Assembly: GCA_903853895.1 (NCBI GenBank)
Contig: CAINUX010000203.1
Location: forward strand, 44,006-108,005
DNA: 64,000 nucleotides
Reading direction: 5' to 3'
Origin: an uncultured beta proteobacterium
GTDB taxonomy: Bacteria > Pseudomonadota > Gammaproteobacteria > Burkholderiales > Burkholderiaceae_C
Shown here piece by piece: positions 20,177-45,479 of this stretch (the first letter of the stretch is position 1; the number at the start of each line of letters is the position of its first letter). The notes beneath the pieces are model-generated. The model was not told the DNA's origin, did no database searches, and was given only the letters and a program-made list of their open reading frames with translations. The position numbers were made by a program, and so were the translations under genes.

Positions 20177-21121
20177 ATGGAAATTCTCTTTGTCAGTGAC
20201 CCGCTTGCGTCCTTCAAGATATACAAGGACACCACCTTCGCGATGATGCGAGAAGCCCAGCGCCGGGGCCACACCATTCACGCCTGTGAGCCGCAACATC
20301 TCGTTTGGGAGCGCGGCGGCGTGGTCCAGGCGCAGGTGCGCAGCATCACCTTGACGGGTGCGCCCGACAACTGGTTTGCCGAAACCGCTCTATCGGTGCG
20401 TGCCATCAAGGACTTTGGTGCCGTGGTGATGCGCAAGGACCCCCCCTTTGACAGCGAATTTTTCTATGCCACGCATTTGCTGGAGCAGGCCGAGCGCGAA
20501 GGCGCCAAGGTCTTCAACAAGCCACGCGCGTTGCGAGACCACCCGGAAAAGCTTGCGATTCTGGAGTTTCCGCAGTTCATTGGTCCCACGCTGGTGACGC
20601 GCGACGCAGAAGCCATCAAACGCTTCCATGCCGAGCACCAGGACATCATCCTGAAGCCGCTGGACGGCATGGGCGGCATGGGGATCTTCCGTGTGAAGGC
20701 GGACGGCCTGAACCTGGGCGGCATCATTGAAACCCTGAACAAGGACGGCGCCGAGACCGTGATGGTGCAGAAATTCCTGCCGGCCATTGCCCAGGGCGAC
20801 AAGCGGGTGCTGGTCATCGGTGGCAAGGCGGTCCCGTTTTGCCTGGCTCGCATTCCGCAGGGCAACGAGGTCCGTGGCAACCTGGCTGTGGGTGGCAAGG
20901 GCGTGGCGCTGCCGCTGAGCGATTCCGACCGGAGCATTGCCGAAAGTCTGGGTCCCATCCTTGCGGCGCGCGGACTGTTGCTGGTTGGGCTGGATGTGAT
21001 TGGCGGCAGCCTGACCGAAATCAACGTGACCAGCCCGACCTGCTTTCAGGAAATCAGCGACCAGACCGGCTTCGACGTGGCGGCTATGTTCGTCGATGCG
21101 CTGGAGGCTGCAGCGCGCTGA
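20177..21121 (+). CDS. gshB: Glutathione synthase
   Basis: MEILFVSDPLASFKIYKDTTFAMMREAQRRGH; DIILKPLDGMGGMGIFRV; ATP-grasp. Confidence 0.93.
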   Translation: MEILFVSDPLASFKIYKDTTFAMMREAQRRGHTIHACEPQHLVWERGGVVQAQVRSITLTGAPDNWFAETALSVRAIKDFGAVVMRKDPPFDSEFFYATHLLEQAEREGAKVFNKPRALRDHPEKLAILEFPQFIGPTLVTRDAEAIKRFHAEHQDIILKPLDGMGGMGIFRVKADGLNLGGIIETLNKDGAETVMVQKFLPAIAQGDKRVLVIGGKAVPFCLARIPQGNEVRGNLAVGGKGVALPLSDSDRSIAESLGPILAARGLLLVGLDVIGGSLTEINVTSPTCFQEISDQTGFDVAAMFVDALEAAAR

Positions 21122-21128
21122 CGACCAT

Positions 21129-21977
21129 TCATTTCGCCAGTTTTTTCAGATTGGAATCGGCGGGTCGTTCTCTTGCTAACGCTTGCCAGATGGTTTGTGC
21201 ATCGTCGGTGGCGCCGGCCTGTTGTAACTGGGCGGCGTAGAGGACCCAGGCCGAAAACGACGCGTCGGGCGCTGGCTTGATCAAGTCCAGAATCCGGGCA
21301 GCATCCGCAGCTACCACTGAAAAGCCCGTGCTGGTGGCGTTTGCAACCGGCTCGCCCGTCTGGTTGAGCGGCTCAACTTTCCACGTGTACCGGTTGCCCA
21401 GGCGCAGGCCGGAATCGGGCGTGAGCGCCAATTGTGCTTCCGTGGTGTTGCGTTGCCAGATGGTTTTGTTGGTGTCATCGCTGACAGTCACCCGGTAGCT
21501 ACTGGCTCCCGCCATGTGCTCCCACCGCAAGGTCGGCGTGGTATCCGGTATGGCCGTATTGGACGGATACATAGGGAGCTTGCCCAGCAAAACGGACCCG
21601 CCGCGCATGGTCATGGAAGCCCGGGAAAGCTTGCCGGTGGCAATCCTGACATCGGGCAGCGAACCCTCTGCAACACTGCGCATCTTGACCGTGCCTGTGG
21701 TCACGGACAGCACACCGCCGCTGGTGATGCGAAACTGGCCGGGGCCGCTGGCAAGGTACTCCTTGCCTGTGACCAGGTCGATCGCGGAAAATTGGAAGCC
21801 TGCGGGCGCGTCGACCAGGCTGCCATTGGCCATTTCGTTCAGTATCGCCAGCGGTGGTTTGCTGACAAGACCGGGCTTGCCGGTCACGTCCGTAATCAGG
21901 ACGTCGGCCCGGCCGGTGGATGGCTGAAAGAGGCTGGTGACCAGTATGGCAAGGGTGGTGGCTCTCAGCAGGCTCAT
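21129..21977 (-). CDS. Exported FecR-domain-like protein
   Basis: Signal peptide; FecR-like GPGQFRITSGGVLSVTTGTVKMRS; overlaps upstream cyclase stop (ATGA). Confidence 0.65.
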   Translation of the reverse strand: MSLLRATTLAILVTSLFQPSTGRADVLITDVTGKPGLVSKPPLAILNEMANGSLVDAPAGFQFSAIDLVTGKEYLASGPGQFRITSGGVLSVTTGTVKMRSVAEGSLPDVRIATGKLSRASMTMRGGSVLLGKLPMYPSNTAIPDTTPTLRWEHMAGASSYRVTVSDDTNKTIWQRNTTEAQLALTPDSGLRLGNRYTWKVEPLNQTGEPVANATSTGFSVVAADAARILDLIKPAPDASFSAWVLYAAQLQQAGATDDAQTIWQALARERPADSNLKKLAK

Positions 21978-23752
21978 GGGCTGTTCCCCGGTTCGGGTTT
22001 CCAGGCAAATACTGCGATTGCAGAATGACCCCGGATCGACATCGTGCCCATGGAAACCAGGGCCCGGGTGTCTTGGACGTGATGGTACACATTGCTGGAG
22101 AGCAGGACAGGAAATCCGGAGTCCTTGGTCAGCCCCTCGATGCGCGATGCCGCATTGACCGTGTCGCCAATCGCGGAATATTCATATCGGTCACGAGAGC
22201 CGACATAGCCCATCACGGCAGGTCCGTAATGCAAGCCGACGCCAATGTCGATGGCGGGCGCGTCCATGGAAAGCTGCTCGGCGTTGAAGCGCCCCAACTC
22301 CCGGATCATGGACTGCGCACAGGCCAGAGCGTCGTCACAGGCGGTGTTGGACGCAACGGGCGCGCCAAACACGGCCATGAGGCCATCCCCGATGAATTTG
22401 TCCAGCGTTCCGCCATGGCTGTGAATGGTGCCCACCATGCGGTCAAAGTAGCGGTTGAGCAACGCGGTGACCTGTTCCGGAGGCATGGATTCGCTCAATG
22501 TGGTGAACCCTCGAATATCGGCGAACAGCACACAGATTTCCGATCGGACGCCGTCCATCTTCGGGTCGAGATTGCCGGCCAGAATCTCGGTCATCACGTC
22601 GGGGCTGACAAATCCGCCAAAGGTGTCGCGCAGCCTTTTGCGCTCGCGTATCAATAGCCAGGCATTGACCGCAGCCTTGGCGCCAACCCCCCCGGCCCAC
22701 GCGACGCAGAGGGACAGTGAAGCAACTGCCCAACCCGAGCGCAGCAAGACCAAGGAACTGACCTGAATGGCAATGGCCAGCACGACCATGCCAGCCCAGG
22801 TCCAGGCGCCTGGTCTAAGCCACCACCCCAGGGCCAACAACACCATGACTGCCAACTGGTACGGGAGCGCCAGCGGTTGGACCATGGCATTGCCCATCAT
22901 GCTGCGCAGTTGTTGTGCGTGAACGAGGACACCGTGTGAGGTTCCGTGTGGGGTGTTCCAGCTGCCCAAGGCCAGAGGTGTGCGCTGGTGGTCGTCGAAC
23001 GACATGACGCTACCCAGGAAGACGGCTTTGTTGGCGAAAGCGGCGCGCAGCAGATCCACCTGTCCTTCGCGCTGCCACGCAAGCACCGTGCGCAGAGGCA
23101 GGTATTGGAAGGCCGGACGGATGGCATAGTTGATGAGGCCCGGTGACGTTGGCACACCAATGGCACGCGCCATCTGTCCCGACAGCGTCGGAACCGGATT
23201 CTCCCCGTCACCGATTTTTTCGTCGAACACGCGAATCACCCCATCGGCGTCGGTGACGACGAAGATATACCCGAAGCCGGCCGCGCCCACCAGTGTTCTG
23301 AACAACGGGTGCACCGGTCTGGGGTTGCCGTCGCTGTCGGCGCTCAGTCCCAGTACCAGCGGGGCAATAGGTCGCAGTTTCAGGATGCCTCGCGCCAGAG
23401 TCGCATCCAGCCCTGGCAGCAGCTTGTCAAACGAAACGGCGGGGAGCAGCATGTCCAGGCCCACCACCCTGGGGCGTGCCATGGCCATGGCTTCCATAAA
23501 TGCACCCAACTCCCTGTGCATCAAGGCGGTGGGGACGCCGAACTGGAGCATGTCCTCGTCATCAATGCCGACAATGGCGACAGGTTCGCTATCCAGGATG
23601 GGTTGCTCGATGGACAGGAAGCGGAACTGCTGATCGCGCCATTGGCTTTCCAGCAGTTGGAATGACGGGGTTAAGAAGCACGCCAGAGCAAGCAGCCAGG
23701 GCAGGGCGAAACCCGCTGCGTTGATCCAGTGTTTTCTCGGGTGAGGTTCCAT
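21974..23752 (-). CDS. CHASE2-domain adenylate/guanylate cyclase
   Basis: N-terminal TM + CHASE2 (IVGIDDEDMLQFG), TM cluster, class III cyclase CVLFADIRGFTTLSE, KFIGDGLMAVFGAP, YSAIGDTVNAASRIEGL. Confidence 0.88.
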   Translation of the reverse strand: MEPHPRKHWINAAGFALPWLLALACFLTPSFQLLESQWRDQQFRFLSIEQPILDSEPVAIVGIDDEDMLQFGVPTALMHRELGAFMEAMAMARPRVVGLDMLLPAVSFDKLLPGLDATLARGILKLRPIAPLVLGLSADSDGNPRPVHPLFRTLVGAAGFGYIFVVTDADGVIRVFDEKIGDGENPVPTLSGQMARAIGVPTSPGLINYAIRPAFQYLPLRTVLAWQREGQVDLLRAAFANKAVFLGSVMSFDDHQRTPLALGSWNTPHGTSHGVLVHAQQLRSMMGNAMVQPLALPYQLAVMVLLALGWWLRPGAWTWAGMVVLAIAIQVSSLVLLRSGWAVASLSLCVAWAGGVGAKAAVNAWLLIRERKRLRDTFGGFVSPDVMTEILAGNLDPKMDGVRSEICVLFADIRGFTTLSESMPPEQVTALLNRYFDRMVGTIHSHGGTLDKFIGDGLMAVFGAPVASNTACDDALACAQSMIRELGRFNAEQLSMDAPAIDIGVGLHYGPAVMGYVGSRDRYEYSAIGDTVNAASRIEGLTKDSGFPVLLSSNVYHHVQDTRALVSMGTMSIRGHSAIAVFAWKPEPGNSP

Positions 23753-23760
23753 TGCCAGTT

Positions 23761-26688
23761 TTAGCGCTTCACCAGTGCAATAGGGAAGTCGCTGATTCCC
23801 GACGGTGTGATGCTGACTGGTGACTGCTGTCCCTTGGTCAGTTCTTTTACTCGCTCCGCCACGTAGAAGTCCAGCGCCTTGTGGGATATGACTCCGGTTT
23901 TCCGGAAGTCTGCCTTGCCGGTCAGTCCTTCCACGACCGCCTTGGTAAACGCGCCATTGCCCCACTCAGGTGCCTCTCTTGAAAACTGTCGGCCGGTTGA
24001 CGCTGCAAAAACAATGACGCCATTTTCGGCGGATGCCAGTTCATTGACGACAGCATTGACATCAACCACGCCACGGGTCTTTGCCGTGCCCAGGGCGTTG
24101 CCCGAGTGGCAGCTGTCAATGAAAAACAAGGCTTTTCCTGCAATGCTGTTCAACGCCAGTTTGATGTCGTTTTGCGCAACCCCGGTGCGCAGCAACTGTT
24201 CCGGGTTGCCGTCGTGGGGTAGGAAGTAGTAGTTGCCAGCGTTGTCATTCAGGCCGTGTCCGGCCAGAAAAAGTATGCCGACATCGCGGGACGTTACTTC
24301 ACGCTTAAGCCATTCCAGCCCGTCCAGAACGCCGTCCTTTGTGGCTTTCCCGTCGGTGAGTATCTTGACTTCCACGTCGCGGTACAGGCTCCCCTTTTGC
24401 AGGGACATCGCCTTGCTGAAGTCACCCGCATCCTTAGCGGCGAAGTCCAGGTTGTATGAGGCATTGCGGTACTTGGACATGCCAACTGCCAGCACATAGA
24501 GCTTGGGCGCCAGGGAGCTGTCGGTTTTGGTCGGGTTTGCGGGTGATGTGTCGCGGGGTCTTGCACCAGACCACTTCACCGGCACGACCGCTGGGGTCGA
24601 TATACCGTTGCGATTCTCGGCAAATACCTGTATCTCCGAGTCGTCTGCGGGTACCTTGACTGAGATCTCACGCCCGGAGGCGCCGGGTCCATCCGAGCTT
24701 TTCGCCAGGCGTGTTTCAGGCTGCAACAGGCCGTTGACCCGAACACGTACCGATAGCACGGGTGCATCGCTGGGCGTGCGGATGGCAATGCGAAGAGTCA
24801 ATTCCGCTTTGGCGGTCGACACGTCTCCAAGCGGGGACACTATCTCCACAATCGGCGGAAGTGCGACGGCTGCAATCTCAGATCGTGGTGTACGGTTGGC
24901 ATCCAAATCGGCCAGCCGAACCGCCTCTTGAATGTCTGCTGCCCCTAACACCCTGGCAACCACATCGGGCCGATAGTATTGCCCCCGAAATCGTGAGGCC
25001 GGGAAGAAATCTGCCGCCAGGTCCTTCCCCCGGTTCAGATGCCAGCCTATCAAGTCCTCTGATCCCGGGCCTGCTGCGAAGAAGCCGGATGGTGTCCACA
25101 GTACCCATCTGCGACGGTCGGTGTGCGCAAACAAAGTCAGATGTTCAGCTCCATCTTTTGCTGCGTACCAATGGATGGTGCCGTCACTGAAGGCCGCGAC
25201 GACCCATCGGCCGTTCTCGGAAACATTGACTTGCCAGGTCGTGCCTGGCGCAGCCACTCGCCAGAGTTCTGTTCCACTCGCGTTGTAGTACCGGACGTGC
25301 TGGCTGGTTCCGATCGCAAAACCTGAGTTGTTCGATGCAACCGCTGCGGTCATGGAAATTTCGGACTCATTCAGGCTTAGGCGACGTTGGTTCAATGTGG
25401 GGTTTGTGTTTTCGAACCAATCGCCTATGACTAGGGGAGGCTTCCCGGCGCCCGGTGGTTTCCATTGCGGTTGGGGTGCAGTCCACTGCAACTGCACGAC
25501 GTCGAATGCGGCAACATCACCCGTTCCTTGACTGCTGTTTAAAGGAAATGCAACGCTTGCCCCGTCTCGGGATAAACGAAAAGCGCTGCGTGCATTGCGG
25601 AAGTCCGCCAGGGCACTGCCAAACGATTGATTGGTATATCCACTGGTAGTGCTTTTTAGCCAACCCCACGAAGGTTCAGCAGACGCGTAGACCACGCGGC
25701 CGTCGGCTAAGGTGTGGACACCGACCACACTGTTGCTGGCAACACTTTCGTCGTTTGCAGCACCCTTGCCGCCCTGTCGCCAGCGCCGAAGGACGTTCAA
25801 GCGATCTGCACCTCGCCAGGTTCCCGCAGCGAGCAAGTCCTCACCATCTCGTGTCCAGGAAACAGCGTTCAGACTGCCGCCCGAAATACCTGTAGTGCTG
25901 GGAGCGTAGGCCAGTTGCAAGGTGTCTGCGTTCAATACGGCAACCGAGGTTGAGTCCGAAAACCCCACGGCCAGGAGTCGATTGTCCGGTGACCAGGCTA
26001 CGCCAAACGGCTGCCGCCCTTGGTTGGGGCGGGTGCTGCCTGCAAGTCTGAGGGGCCGTTGCGTTGCGTCGTAAGCACGGATCAACCCGTCGGTACTTGC
26101 CACGGCGAGTCGGGCACCGTCCCAAGAGAACTTGGCCCCGGTGACTGCACCCTCGTAGCGGTTGTCGCTGCCGGTCTCGCGGCTGCTGTGCCAGCCAGAA
26201 TCGCTGCTGAACAGGCGAACGCCATTTACACCCCACAGCCCTACGGCGAGAGTCCTTCCGTCAGGGGAGAACGTGAGTTGAGTGACAACATCTGGCAATC
26301 CGGTGATGCGATGCCAAAGTGCGCCACTGGATCGATCAAACAGGTAGACGTCGTTGTCCGCGGACCACCCGCCCACCGCCACCATGGCACCGTCCGGAGT
26401 CATTGCCGCAGCAAAGAGCTTTCCGTCGTTACCTGGGCCCACCGGGGGTCTCAGGACTTGCAATAGCTTGCCACTTTCAAGATCCCAGATGCTGGCCGTC
26501 TTGTCTTCCGCAGCCGTTACGGCATACCGCCCTTTGCTGTCAACATCGATTGCACGAATGGGCGCGCTGTGCGAACCAATACTGGTCCGCAATATAGGGA
26601 CTTCCGCTGGCTGGTCTGGACCCGCAAAGGAATTCCAGACGCATGTGGCAAGTGCAAAGGCACACACGCGGCTGAAATACGTCTTCAC
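23761..26688 (-). CDS. Exported WD40-repeat protein with C-terminal caspase (peptidase C14) domain
   Basis: Signal peptide; WD40 repeats; KLYVLAVGMSKYRN, LFLAGHGLND (His), FFIDSCHSGN (Cys). Confidence 0.9.
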   Translation of the reverse strand: MKTYFSRVCAFALATCVWNSFAGPDQPAEVPILRTSIGSHSAPIRAIDVDSKGRYAVTAAEDKTASIWDLESGKLLQVLRPPVGPGNDGKLFAAAMTPDGAMVAVGGWSADNDVYLFDRSSGALWHRITGLPDVVTQLTFSPDGRTLAVGLWGVNGVRLFSSDSGWHSSRETGSDNRYEGAVTGAKFSWDGARLAVASTDGLIRAYDATQRPLRLAGSTRPNQGRQPFGVAWSPDNRLLAVGFSDSTSVAVLNADTLQLAYAPSTTGISGGSLNAVSWTRDGEDLLAAGTWRGADRLNVLRRWRQGGKGAANDESVASNSVVGVHTLADGRVVYASAEPSWGWLKSTTSGYTNQSFGSALADFRNARSAFRLSRDGASVAFPLNSSQGTGDVAAFDVVQLQWTAPQPQWKPPGAGKPPLVIGDWFENTNPTLNQRRLSLNESEISMTAAVASNNSGFAIGTSQHVRYYNASGTELWRVAAPGTTWQVNVSENGRWVVAAFSDGTIHWYAAKDGAEHLTLFAHTDRRRWVLWTPSGFFAAGPGSEDLIGWHLNRGKDLAADFFPASRFRGQYYRPDVVARVLGAADIQEAVRLADLDANRTPRSEIAAVALPPIVEIVSPLGDVSTAKAELTLRIAIRTPSDAPVLSVRVRVNGLLQPETRLAKSSDGPGASGREISVKVPADDSEIQVFAENRNGISTPAVVPVKWSGARPRDTSPANPTKTDSSLAPKLYVLAVGMSKYRNASYNLDFAAKDAGDFSKAMSLQKGSLYRDVEVKILTDGKATKDGVLDGLEWLKREVTSRDVGILFLAGHGLNDNAGNYYFLPHDGNPEQLLRTGVAQNDIKLALNSIAGKALFFIDSCHSGNALGTAKTRGVVDVNAVVNELASAENGVIVFAASTGRQFSREAPEWGNGAFTKAVVEGLTGKADFRKTGVISHKALDFYVAERVKELTKGQQSPVSITPSGISDFPIALVKR

Positions 26689-26700
26689 TGTGGCCCTGAC

Positions 26701-27993
26701 TCAACTCGTCGTCGGACATTGCGCCGATTTGAATTCGATGCGCCGATCCAGGGAGTCAAAGGGATCGCCTTTTCCGGTGGCAACCAGTGCCTCGCTGGAA
26801 CCATAGCCCTTCGTTGATATCACGTTTGCCAGATCCTTGCGTTCTGCGAGCAGACGCTGCTTGACGTATTCGGCGCGCTGAAGCGCCAGGCGTTCGTTGA
26901 GTGGCTCCGAGCCTCCACGGCCGGTATGGCCGCCAACCTCAAAGCAGGTCTCGGAGGTTTTCGCCAATTTCGATGACACACTGGCCAGTTCCTTGATCCA
27001 CCGGTCGTAAGGATTTTCATCTTTGGCCAGTGCCGAACCACCGCTTTGGAAACCAAATTTGACCGCCAGGCGTTTCGCGCTCATACCCTGTGATGCCATT
27101 TTCGAGAACACCTGCATGGCTGCATCGCGACGCCCCAATTTGACGTTGGAGAGGTAGATCCCCGTGTGCACCCTGGCCTGGTCACCTGCCGGGTTTCGCA
27201 ACAGGGCGGTAAAGAGAGCCAGAGAATCCTTGTACTTCTTGCTGTTGTACGCTTTGGTGGCCTCGTCGATGCCGGCAACGACGCTCACCTTGTCCAGGTA
27301 GGCTGTATTGATAGGGTCTCCCGCGCTGGTGCCCTGGCAAGTCTTGATATAGCCTTCCACGATTTTGTCATTGACCCAAAGGGGTGCATCGCGAAAGTAG
27401 GGCAAGGGTGTCGGATCGATGCCGTCAGTTTGTGACCTGGCAAACCCCTTGCTGACAATCTTGCCAGTCTTGAGATCGGCGAGTGCAAAGCAAACGCGAT
27501 AAGCGTCACGTTCGCCCGAGGCCTTGCCTTGCAGGTTGATAGGGGTAAACGTTCCTATGAATACCAGCGGCGCCGCGGCCAGGTTGGCGGCATTAAAGGG
27601 CTTGACCTGGTACCGGGGATAGTTGTTGGAAACAATTTCTGTGACCTGCTGTTCCAGTGCAACCGTGGCGACGGACTGCATCCCCGTCGTTCCATCGACC
27701 AGGGGATCAATGACCAGACTGAAGGATTGGCCATCGGGCAATTTGGCTTTCGTGAACAAATCGCGTGCGGCCAGTTTGACTGCATCCCCATAGGGCAGTG
27801 CAACAACGACCGGCGGTGCGACAGGAGCAGGCTGTGCTACCGCCACGGTGGCCGGCGCTGCTGGGACTGGGGCTCGCACAACCTCCTGCGGCGCGCATGC
27901 AATCATGGACGCGCCAAGGAGCGGGACCCACTTGAAACACCCTTTGGATGCATGGCGGGTCCGGCAGGGAACGCTGGGTAAAAAGTGTTTCAT
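26701..27993 (-). CDS. OmpA-domain lipoprotein with TPR-like middle region
   Basis: Lipobox-like SMIAC; C-terminal EVGGHTGRGGSEPLNERLALQRAEYVKQRLL...GYGSSEAL...DRRIEF. Confidence 0.75.
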   Translation of the reverse strand: MKHFLPSVPCRTRHASKGCFKWVPLLGASMIACAPQEVVRAPVPAAPATVAVAQPAPVAPPVVVALPYGDAVKLAARDLFTKAKLPDGQSFSLVIDPLVDGTTGMQSVATVALEQQVTEIVSNNYPRYQVKPFNAANLAAAPLVFIGTFTPINLQGKASGERDAYRVCFALADLKTGKIVSKGFARSQTDGIDPTPLPYFRDAPLWVNDKIVEGYIKTCQGTSAGDPINTAYLDKVSVVAGIDEATKAYNSKKYKDSLALFTALLRNPAGDQARVHTGIYLSNVKLGRRDAAMQVFSKMASQGMSAKRLAVKFGFQSGGSALAKDENPYDRWIKELASVSSKLAKTSETCFEVGGHTGRGGSEPLNERLALQRAEYVKQRLLAERKDLANVISTKGYGSSEALVATGKGDPFDSLDRRIEFKSAQCPTTS

Positions 27994-28119
27994 GGAATGG
28001 CCTCGAACGAGTGACGTGAGTTACACCATACTGACTGCGCGAATTTAGTCCAATTGCGTGAACAATGCAAAGAGAATCAACGCTGCCCCGATCTGGGGCT
28101 GGTGTGCCCAAACTCCCGG

Positions 28120-28905
28120 TCAGTCGGTGAGCGGTGCACCATCTACAAAGACCTTGAATTCACCCGGTTCCATGGCGACCCAGTCTTCGTTGGTTGTCAG
28201 CGGTTCGGTCACTACGATGGCCAGACGATCCTCGGGTCCATTGAGTTCGGCCAGGTCTACATTCACGTCTTCGTCCTTCAGCTGGACCTGGGTGAAAGGG
28301 TGTTGACGCACCACATAGTGCAACTTGGTGCTGGCATGTGCCCACAGGGCCTGTCCGTTGCTCAGCAGGAAATTGAAGGTGCCGTGCTTGGCAATCCGGG
28401 GCACCAGTTCGCGCAGCGTGTGCGTGAGCTCTTCGACACTGGGCACGCCGGAGTGTGATTTGTTGAGCTCCTGCAATAGCCAGCAAAAAGCCAGTTCGCT
28501 GTCGGTGTCGCCGACCGGTTTGAAAGCCCCGTGCAGCATCGGATGAAAGTCTTTCAAATCGCCGTTGTGGGCAAATACCCAGTAGCGGCCCCACAGCTCG
28601 CGCACAAAGGGATGGCAGTTTTCCAGACTGACCTGGCCCACTGTGGCCTTGCGCACGTGGGCGACGACGTTGTGGCTCTTGATCGGGTAGGTGCGCAGCA
28701 TTTGCGCAATCGGGGATGTGGCGGCGCTTTCCTTGTCGACGAAATAGCGCGCAGCCTTGCCGGGCTTTTGCCCGTCACTTTCAAAGAAGGCGATGCCCCA
28801 GCCGTCAGAATGGTGGTCGGTGCAGCCACCGCGTTGCGAAAACCCGGTAAAACTCAGCGTCAGACTGGCCGGCAGCCGGCTGTTCATTCCAAGGAGTTGG
28901 CACAT
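28120..28905 (-). CDS. Class II glutamine amidotransferase, YafJ-like
   Basis: MCQLLGMNSRLPASLTLSFTGFSQRGGCTDHHSDGWGIAFFE; N-terminal Cys2. Confidence 0.9.
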   Translation of the reverse strand: MCQLLGMNSRLPASLTLSFTGFSQRGGCTDHHSDGWGIAFFESDGQKPGKAARYFVDKESAATSPIAQMLRTYPIKSHNVVAHVRKATVGQVSLENCHPFVRELWGRYWVFAHNGDLKDFHPMLHGAFKPVGDTDSELAFCWLLQELNKSHSGVPSVEELTHTLRELVPRIAKHGTFNFLLSNGQALWAHASTKLHYVVRQHPFTQVQLKDEDVNVDLAELNGPEDRLAIVVTEPLTTNEDWVAMEPGEFKVFVDGAPLTD

Positions 28906-43961: not shown

Positions 43962-45479
43962 TTAGCCCAGTGGCCCCAAATCGTCGCCATAGAGTGCGGC
44001 GTCGTCCGAGCCCGAATCGGAGAACCCTCCTGCGGTAGACGTGTCTTTTGAGCTGCTGTCACCCAACAGTTCAAAGGGCAGGGATTGCTTGACCAGGATG
44101 ATGGTACAGGGCGCGTCCATCGCCACCTTGATGGGTACGGTGGCGACGAAACGCTGCGTTTTCAGCCCGTGCGTGGCCGCTCCCATCACGATGACGCTGA
44201 CGTGGTTGCCCCGGGCATAGTCCAGAATGGCCTGGGCCACGTCGCCCGATTCGAGCACGTGGAACGAGGTCTGGTGGCCGGGGTGGTCCAGCGGCTGGGC
44301 CCACTGGCGCAACGTCGTCAGGTAGCGGCGGTGGACGTTGGTTTCGCTTTTGTCTTCATCGGTGCTGCTGGTCTGCCCGGACGAAATGACCGTAACACAG
44401 GCCAGGCGTGCCCCGATGCGGGTGCCCAGCGAGCGGGCCACAGCCTGGCGCAAGGAATACAGCGTTGCATCGGTCACGTCCTTGTGGGGCACGGCCACCA
44501 TCACGATGGGCACTTCGTCGATTTGTTGTGCTGCGATGGGACTGGGCTTGTACTGCATGCCCGCCGCCTTGATCCATCTCTTGAAGTGCGTGCCAAACCG
44601 GGTGCCCGTGACATTGGTTCCGCGGTGGGTGATGGTGATCTGCTCCGGATGTACCAGATCAAAGGCCAGGTGCGCCGCCGATGGGTAGCGGTGCGCGGCT
44701 TCGGGCTCCAGGCAACGCATGACCACTTCTTGCAGCCAAGGAGGCAATTCGGGCTTGAGCTTGCGTGGAGGTACCGGGTCCACCCACAGCCGTTGCCGCA
44801 AGCCGCCATCGGTTTGAGGGGCACCAAAAGGCAGCCGTCCGGTGCACAGCTGGTAGAGCATGACGCCGACCGCAAAAATGTCGCTGCGTGGGTCGCCGCG
44901 CACACCCACCACTTGCTCGGGCGCAATCCAGGCAGGGGAGCCTACGGCCTTGCGCAACTGCTCAGCCAGCAGATCGGGGTAGTGCGCGTGGCACGACAGG
45001 CCAAAGTCCAGCAGCACAGCCGTGCCGTCCCCGCGGAACAGCACATTGGCGGGCTTGAGATCCAGATGCACCGTGTTCTGTTGGTGCAGGGCATGCAAGG
45101 CACGGGCCATCGCTGAGCCTAGCCAGGCGATCTGCTCGACGCTGGGAGGTGTTTCAGAGTCCAGCCAGTGCTCCAGGGTCTCGCCCGTGACGTACTCCAT
45201 GACCAGATAGGGCACGCGGGAAAGGTCGCCAGCGGCCACAAAGCGCGGCACATGGCGGCCCTGCAGCACCTGCATGATCTGGCACTCGATCTCGAAACTG
45301 ACAATGTTTTCCGCGCCGTCGCCCGCCGTCATGCGCGGAATCTTCATCGCCATGGCAAAGCCCGGGTCGCGCTGGCCGTCGGCGTAGTGCACGCGGTAGA
45401 TGTGGGCCATGCCGCCGGAGTGGATGCACTCTTCAATCGTGAAGCCGTCCAGCTCGGCCCCGGGCTCCAGCAGTTTCAT
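43962..45479 (-). CDS. Ser/Thr protein kinase fused to universal stress protein domain
   Basis: HSGGMAHIYRV, HLDLKPANVLF, LLDFGLS, then C-terminal Usp VIVMGAATHGLKTQRFVATVPIKVAMDAPCTIILVK. Confidence 0.88.
   Translation of the reverse strand: MKLLEPGAELDGFTIEECIHSGGMAHIYRVHYADGQRDPGFAMAMKIPRMTAGDGAENIVSFEIECQIMQVLQGRHVPRFVAAGDLSRVPYLVMEYVTGETLEHWLDSETPPSVEQIAWLGSAMARALHALHQQNTVHLDLKPANVLFRGDGTAVLLDFGLSCHAHYPDLLAEQLRKAVGSPAWIAPEQVVGVRGDPRSDIFAVGVMLYQLCTGRLPFGAPQTDGGLRQRLWVDPVPPRKLKPELPPWLQEVVMRCLEPEAAHRYPSAAHLAFDLVHPEQITITHRGTNVTGTRFGTHFKRWIKAAGMQYKPSPIAAQQIDEVPIVMVAVPHKDVTDATLYSLRQAVARSLGTRIGARLACVTVISSGQTSSTDEDKSETNVHRRYLTTLRQWAQPLDHPGHQTSFHVLESGDVAQAILDYARGNHVSVIVMGAATHGLKTQRFVATVPIKVAMDAPCTIILVKQSLPFELLGDSSSKDTSTAGGFSDSGSDDAALYGDDLGPLG

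Follow-up and report, generated by a model that had tools for sequence, protein, structure and literature searches.

A caspase encoded beside a membrane-bound cyclase

Why would a bacterium encode a caspase destined for export in close succession with an adenylate cyclase that makes its product in the cytosol? The question is raised by four minus-strand genes in a stretch of 64,000 nucleotides (the window; positions 44,006 to 108,005 of contig CAINUX010000203.1, assembly GCA_903853895.1) from an uncultured beta proteobacterium of the lineage Burkholderiaceae_C. They encode an OmpA-domain lipoprotein (26701..27993, 430 amino acids), a WD40-caspase with predicted export (23761..26688, 975 amino acids, GTG start at 26688), a CHASE2 class III adenylate cyclase (21974..23752, 592 amino acids, ATG start at 23752) and an MtxA-like exported protein (21129..21977, 282 amino acids). 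Two of the junctions are gaps, of 12 and 8 nt, and the third is an ATGA overlap. Coordinates and strands were exact on recheck, and no promoter-like or terminator-like site within the block rises above shuffled background. With this tight spacing, the single operon-like unit proposed in a first-pass annotation of the sequence holds up.

Caspase homologues are widespread in bacteria, and to our knowledge most of them have no assigned function, the exported ones being especially unclear. Likewise, we know of no ligand for CHASE2 sensors and of no function for MtxA, although its structure has been solved. The coupling of an exported caspase with a CHASE2 cyclase is well supported by the comparative sequence evidence described below. 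Beyond this, we favour the view that the four products form a signalling module leading from envelope to cytoplasm, in which a periplasmic caspase would control cytosolic cyclic AMP (cAMP) via the MtxA-like protein and CHASE2.

The four proteins

The caspase comprises a signal peptide (residues ~1-22), a WD40 beta-propeller region (~32-550), an Ig-like domain (~613-706) and a C14 p20 domain (~730-972), with Pfam scores of 52.3 bits for Peptidase_C14 (PF00656) and 66.9 bits for WD40. Beta-propellers, Ig-like domain and caspase fold are recovered in the predicted structure, whose mean predicted local distance difference test score is 85.8. H811 and C860 form a dyad that does not vary among 25 aligned sequences, and both residues are found in each of the 50 aligned homologues spanning the two positions; a p20 domain with its His-Cys dyad identifies the protein as a C14 orthocaspase. 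Export from the cytoplasm, already suspected in the first-pass annotation, is predicted from the N-terminus: a simple scorer called it signal-peptide-like in 48 of 58 homologues, with truncated open reading frames among the remainder, and nearly all full-length relatives start with such a stretch. Another C14 caspase gene of the same genome lies outside the block (G000:C106:36548-37207).

The cyclase combines a CHASE2 sensor (residues 21-308; 84.1 bits in Pfam), membrane helices and a catalytic domain (residues 404-581; Guanylate_cyc, 81.9 bits), in agreement with its original description. Its motifs FADIRGFT, LDKFIGDG and IGDTVNAASRIE retain the metal Asp residues and the adenine-type Lys (in LDKFIGDG), so that sensor and active site together define a CHASE2 class III adenylate cyclase. 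Among solved structures, the closest sequence match is a chain of a bacteriophytochrome-adenylate cyclase.

The fourth gene had been labelled FecR-like, a label that has to be abandoned. None of the 13 family members matches PF04773 even at E<=1, and hhalign gives a probability of 0.2% against true FecR domains. The family profile instead retrieves proteins bearing DUF7354, MtxA_IG-like and MtxA_C, and aligns with the family that carries these domains over 260 columns (hhalign probability 98%, E 2.5e-13). By this full-length profile comparison the product belongs to the MtxA family, while the window protein itself stays below the thresholds of the Pfam MtxA models. Its regions are a signal peptide, an N-terminal beta domain (24-101), an Ig/Fn3 domain (140-221) and TPR-like helices (224-281). 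The predicted fold likewise places an Ig domain before TPR-like helices, and its Foldseek matches include the solved C-terminal domain of MtxA (4z29), with modest TM-scores of 0.33-0.35 and 0.50-0.51. The earlier label can be explained, since there are other CHASE2 cyclases that do follow a true FecR protein. One of these is the second CHASE2 cyclase of the same genome (L060, contig C41, 6275-11726), which follows a 1160-amino-acid FecR-TPR-beta-barrel protein.

The first gene product carries a C-terminal OmpA domain at residues 334-407 (PF00691, 34.5 bits against a cut-off of 27.2). As first noted, its N-terminus resembles a lipobox: Cys33 is invariant in 6/6 family members, and the motif is a weak MIAC in the window protein and a canonical LGAC in a 90% identical copy from a second Rhodoferax (L072). 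Residue +2 is Ala, the outer-membrane type, and with a lipobox Cys and no Asp at +2 the protein is predicted to be an outer-membrane lipoprotein. Its description as cell-wall-anchored fares less well. The window protein and its five Rhodoferax-clade relatives have GHTG or GHTS in place of GHTD, whose Asp we take to be the residue that binds diaminopimelic acid. The OmpA domain is thus present and its Arg retained, but peptidoglycan binding by the Rhodoferax-clade domain is doubtful. GHTD is intact in the OmpA domains of G129, G016, L106, L110 and L116.

Recurrent association of caspase and cyclase

A genome-wide scan with the caspase alignment yielded 69 loci; many of the loci compared here come from metagenome bins. 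Of the WD40-caspase loci of the close family, 28 have 4 kb or more of sequence on either side; a CHASE2 cyclase is nearby in seven of these, against ~0.2 expected. The reverse count, made from the order's CHASE2 cyclases, gave five genomes with a C14 gene no more than 5 kb away, where 0.15 would be expected; both expectations rest on rough gene densities and on the assumption that genomes are independent. The counts based on the C14 family are lower bounds, because the genome search with PF00656 missed the window's own caspase. Four of the five cyclase-linked caspases are of other architectures (MORN twice, DUF4384, FGE-sulfatase), with signal-peptide-like N-termini.

The arrangement reaches well beyond close relatives. 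In a member of the Syntrophobacterales (L106), genes for OmpA, caspase, cyclase and MtxA-like proteins follow one another in the window's order. Caspase and cyclase adjoin, with gaps usually below 20 nt, in L085, L103, L112 and other loci, and in L112 and L115 two-partner-secretion genes precede caspase, cyclase and MtxA-like gene. In four loci of Nitrospirota the caspase gene comes first and the cyclase gene second, and three of the four have a DUF4384 gene immediately before the caspase. A further locus (L084 in G129) combines two caspases, DUF4384, FecR, cyclase and an LPP20 lipoprotein. A Holophagaceae locus (L099, 8108-21000) has a run of four C14 genes next to a divergent CHASE2-cyclase gene.

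In the cyclase tree, caspase-linked cyclases occupy at least three deep clades, those linked to WD40-caspases falling into separate ones, and well supported branches force at least five changes; in the caspase tree, a cyclase neighbour was gained or lost nine times. As the caspase-linked cyclases are polyphyletic, the link appears to have been made repeatedly. A single shared ancestry of the pair is not favoured by their position in separate deep clades, a single origin followed by cyclase replacement being a possible alternative to repeated assembly.

The MtxA-like protein has partners of both kinds. Pairs with a CHASE2 cyclase and without a caspase occur in many genomes, and in four genomes of another family (G291, G253, G302 and G272; loci L232-L235) an MtxA-like gene comes 18-26 nt after an exported WD40-caspase gene, no cyclase being detected next to these units. 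An adaptor role would fit a protein that partners both cyclases without caspase and caspases without adjacent cyclase. In one genome (G083, locus L058, 8303-12578), a cNMP-binding (cyclic nucleotide monophosphate)/GGDEF/EAL gene immediately precedes a CHASE2-cyclase/MtxA-like pair; the locus is a candidate relay from cAMP to cyclic di-GMP.

Acquisition of the block as one unit

In congeners, gshB (20177-21121 in the window) and a GATase_4 gene (28120-28905) are directly adjacent, 37-153 bp apart in clean cases. Alignments to congeners end at window positions 21111-21119 and restart at 28126-28139. Since these breaks leave a clean empty site, the four genes represent one insertion of ~7 kb (21120..28126). 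No window-type caspase was found in the sampled congeners, weak C14 matches within the genus being confined to G151. The second Rhodoferax holds all four genes at the same site, with 88-91% protein identity, so the block has been inherited as one unit. Ratios of nonsynonymous to synonymous substitution rates (dN/dS) between the two copies are 0.094, 0.094, 0.114 and 0.127 for the four genes. Values of 0.09-0.13 mean that all four are real and maintained, with purifying selection acting on them in the second Rhodoferax.

Four other Rhodoferax (L073, L074, L076 and L120) have the OmpA-lipoprotein and caspase genes only, with no cyclase nearby, and the caspase relatives that have such a lipoprotein-caspase pair are Rhodoferax. 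These loci suggest that the window lineage brought together two pre-existing pairs, lipoprotein-caspase and cyclase-MtxA-like. The G+C content at third codon positions (GC3) splits accordingly, at 0.65 and 0.63 for lipoprotein and caspase versus 0.70 and 0.73 for cyclase and MtxA-like protein. The surroundings are housekeeping genes (gshB, GATase_4, DUF454) and not a defence island. Carriage by a mobile element was considered and rejected: integrase-type and transposase domains are absent from the four inserted genes, and the plasmid-borne relatives of the caspase are distant.

From periplasmic caspase to cAMP: a proposal and its alternatives

The predicted layout, with a lipoprotein at the outer membrane, a protease and an adaptor in the periplasm and an inner-membrane sensor joined to a cytosolic cyclase, fits the conversion of an envelope signal into cAMP. 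The caspase would be active in the periplasm beside the outer-membrane lipoprotein, and the cyclase would span the inner membrane, sensing on the outer face and making cAMP on the inner one, with the MtxA-like protein as a periplasmic adaptor common to both. An envelope signal, which might be damage, misfolded protein or a ligand of the WD40 propellers, would switch the caspase on. The active enzyme would then cleave, or bind through, the MtxA-like protein or the CHASE2 domain, cyclase activity would change as a result, and the cAMP would be read by CRP-type or other cNMP-binding effectors, for which the 24 cNMP-binding domains of the genome could serve. We infer such a control of cAMP by the caspase, as the first-pass annotation had proposed; physical contact, direction of signalling, substrate, stimulus and effectors are all part of what is being proposed. 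That annotation had also named observations that would speak against its idea, namely a gene set confined to close relatives, separate promoters or a cytosolic caspase. The neighbourhood scan and the block itself spoke for none of the three, the caspases having signal-peptide-like N-termini.

Several points weigh against this control. Co-location of caspase and cyclase genes does not by itself establish that one protein acts on the other. The majority of WD40-caspase loci have no cyclase nearby, the four Rhodoferax pairs among them, which argues that the caspase has a role without it; other relatives adjoin two-partner-secretion or type VI secretion genes, which could indicate a different role. 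In Magnetospirillum, deletion of mtxA is reported to have no phenotype under standard conditions (PMC4439547). Finally, signal peptides and lipobox were called by motif rules and not by SignalP.

The same genes might also act side by side. The cyclase/MtxA-like pair would then sense the envelope and raise cAMP, while caspase and lipoprotein formed a separate, co-expressed periplasmic protease for quality control or processing under the same stress. The two halves do occur apart, as the four Rhodoferax pairs and the many caspase-free cyclase/MtxA-like pairs attest, and their GC3 values differ. We nevertheless regard this as rather unlikely, given that the MtxA-like protein is directly paired with WD40-caspases where no cyclase is adjacent, and that unrelated caspase architectures repeatedly join the cyclase/MtxA-like pair, which suggests contact beyond co-regulation alone. 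A system of abortive infection or programmed death, with the cyclase as sensor of phage or stress and the caspase as executioner, would accord with the sporadic distribution of the block and its gain by insertion. Prokaryotic caspases are known from conflict systems (PMC8195603), and the PADLOC models for a cyclase (PycC) and a caspase match the catalytic domains. However, caspase and cAMP would lie on opposite sides of the inner membrane, which makes a Pycsar-like activation of the caspase by cAMP unlikely; the block lacks a Pycsar-type effector, the PycC matches are limited to the class III catalytic domain, and the neighbours are housekeeping genes. A death system is therefore improbable, and a defence role for the block is possible but unsupported. 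As for four accessory envelope genes that came together by chance, every family is indeed also found alone elsewhere. Such an accident can hardly account for the shared insertion, the same order in distant phyla, the repeated independent assembly and the strong enrichment, with proximity counts far above expectation in both directions, and it was rejected.

Control of the cyclase by the caspase would give each component a testable partner: the caspase as input of CHASE2, MtxA as adaptor and cAMP as output. Since a second messenger is unlikely to trigger suicide in this setting, the block speaks for bacterial caspases having signalling functions other than in cell death. The assembly of the same partnership several times in distant bacteria suggests a link between envelope proteolysis and cAMP signalling that has not been described. 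More tentatively, it is conceivable that this represents a categorically new principle of transmembrane signalling, in which periplasmic proteolysis by an exported caspase, read by CHASE2 through an MtxA-like adaptor, determines the cAMP level of the cytosol; such a pathway would then also include orphan MtxA proteins and many of the caspases that bacteria export.

Relation to known systems

No operon combining a caspase with CHASE2 and FecR or OmpA was found described in the literature. No finding hints at anti-phage defence in particular. The nearest precedent is Magnetospirillum gryphiswaldense, where mtxA (MGR_0208) is followed by a CHASE2 adenylate cyclase gene. The likeness lies in a periplasmic MtxA-family protein (beta domain, Ig, TPR) encoded next to such a cyclase; the pair is published as one of unknown function, with magnetotaxis as the suggested role, and in the accessible part of that report neither caspase nor OmpA lipoprotein is named in the cluster (PMC4439547). 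The BiofilmReg operon of Burkholderia (LysM-FecR protein, CHASE2 histidine kinase, response regulator and DUF4136) also pairs a periplasmic envelope protein with a CHASE2 sensor, but has kinase and response regulator instead of a cyclase, a true FecR domain and no caspase (PMC5192318). No kinase, response regulator, FecR or LysM domain was found among the four block genes.

A survey of metacaspase (orthocaspase) operons includes C14 caspases with WD40 and reports OmpA in 14 of 217 operons. Its Trichodesmium caspase-CHASE2 fusion has a caspase domain predicted to be cytosolic, unlike the exported caspase of the block, none of the operons described in the accessible part of the paper contains a CHASE2 cyclase or an MtxA-like protein, and the paper uses neither the word "cyclase" nor "FecR" (PMC3501461). 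Pycsar and other cyclic-nucleotide defence systems share the class III cyclase fold, whereas in the block the cyclase is membrane-bound and carries a CHASE2 sensor, the protease is exported, and a nucleotide-gated cytosolic effector is absent. A Pycsar/CBASS-like assignment was rejected on the restriction of PADLOC matches to catalytic domains, the adenine-type Lys and the absence of any other Pycsar component from the four genes.

Other WD40-caspases have different company. Distant relatives (30-37% identity) reside on plasmids of Pseudoroseomonas (L199, pL11-A) and Azospirillum oryzae (L200, unnamed2), with a glycine-zipper protein gene before the caspase and type VI secretion genes after it. 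In L110, L112, L115, L116, L121 and L122, WD40-caspases stand in a row with ShlB-type secretion proteins, most of these loci also having a large TPS-domain (FHA-like) protein; they are possibly secreted or surface caspase systems.

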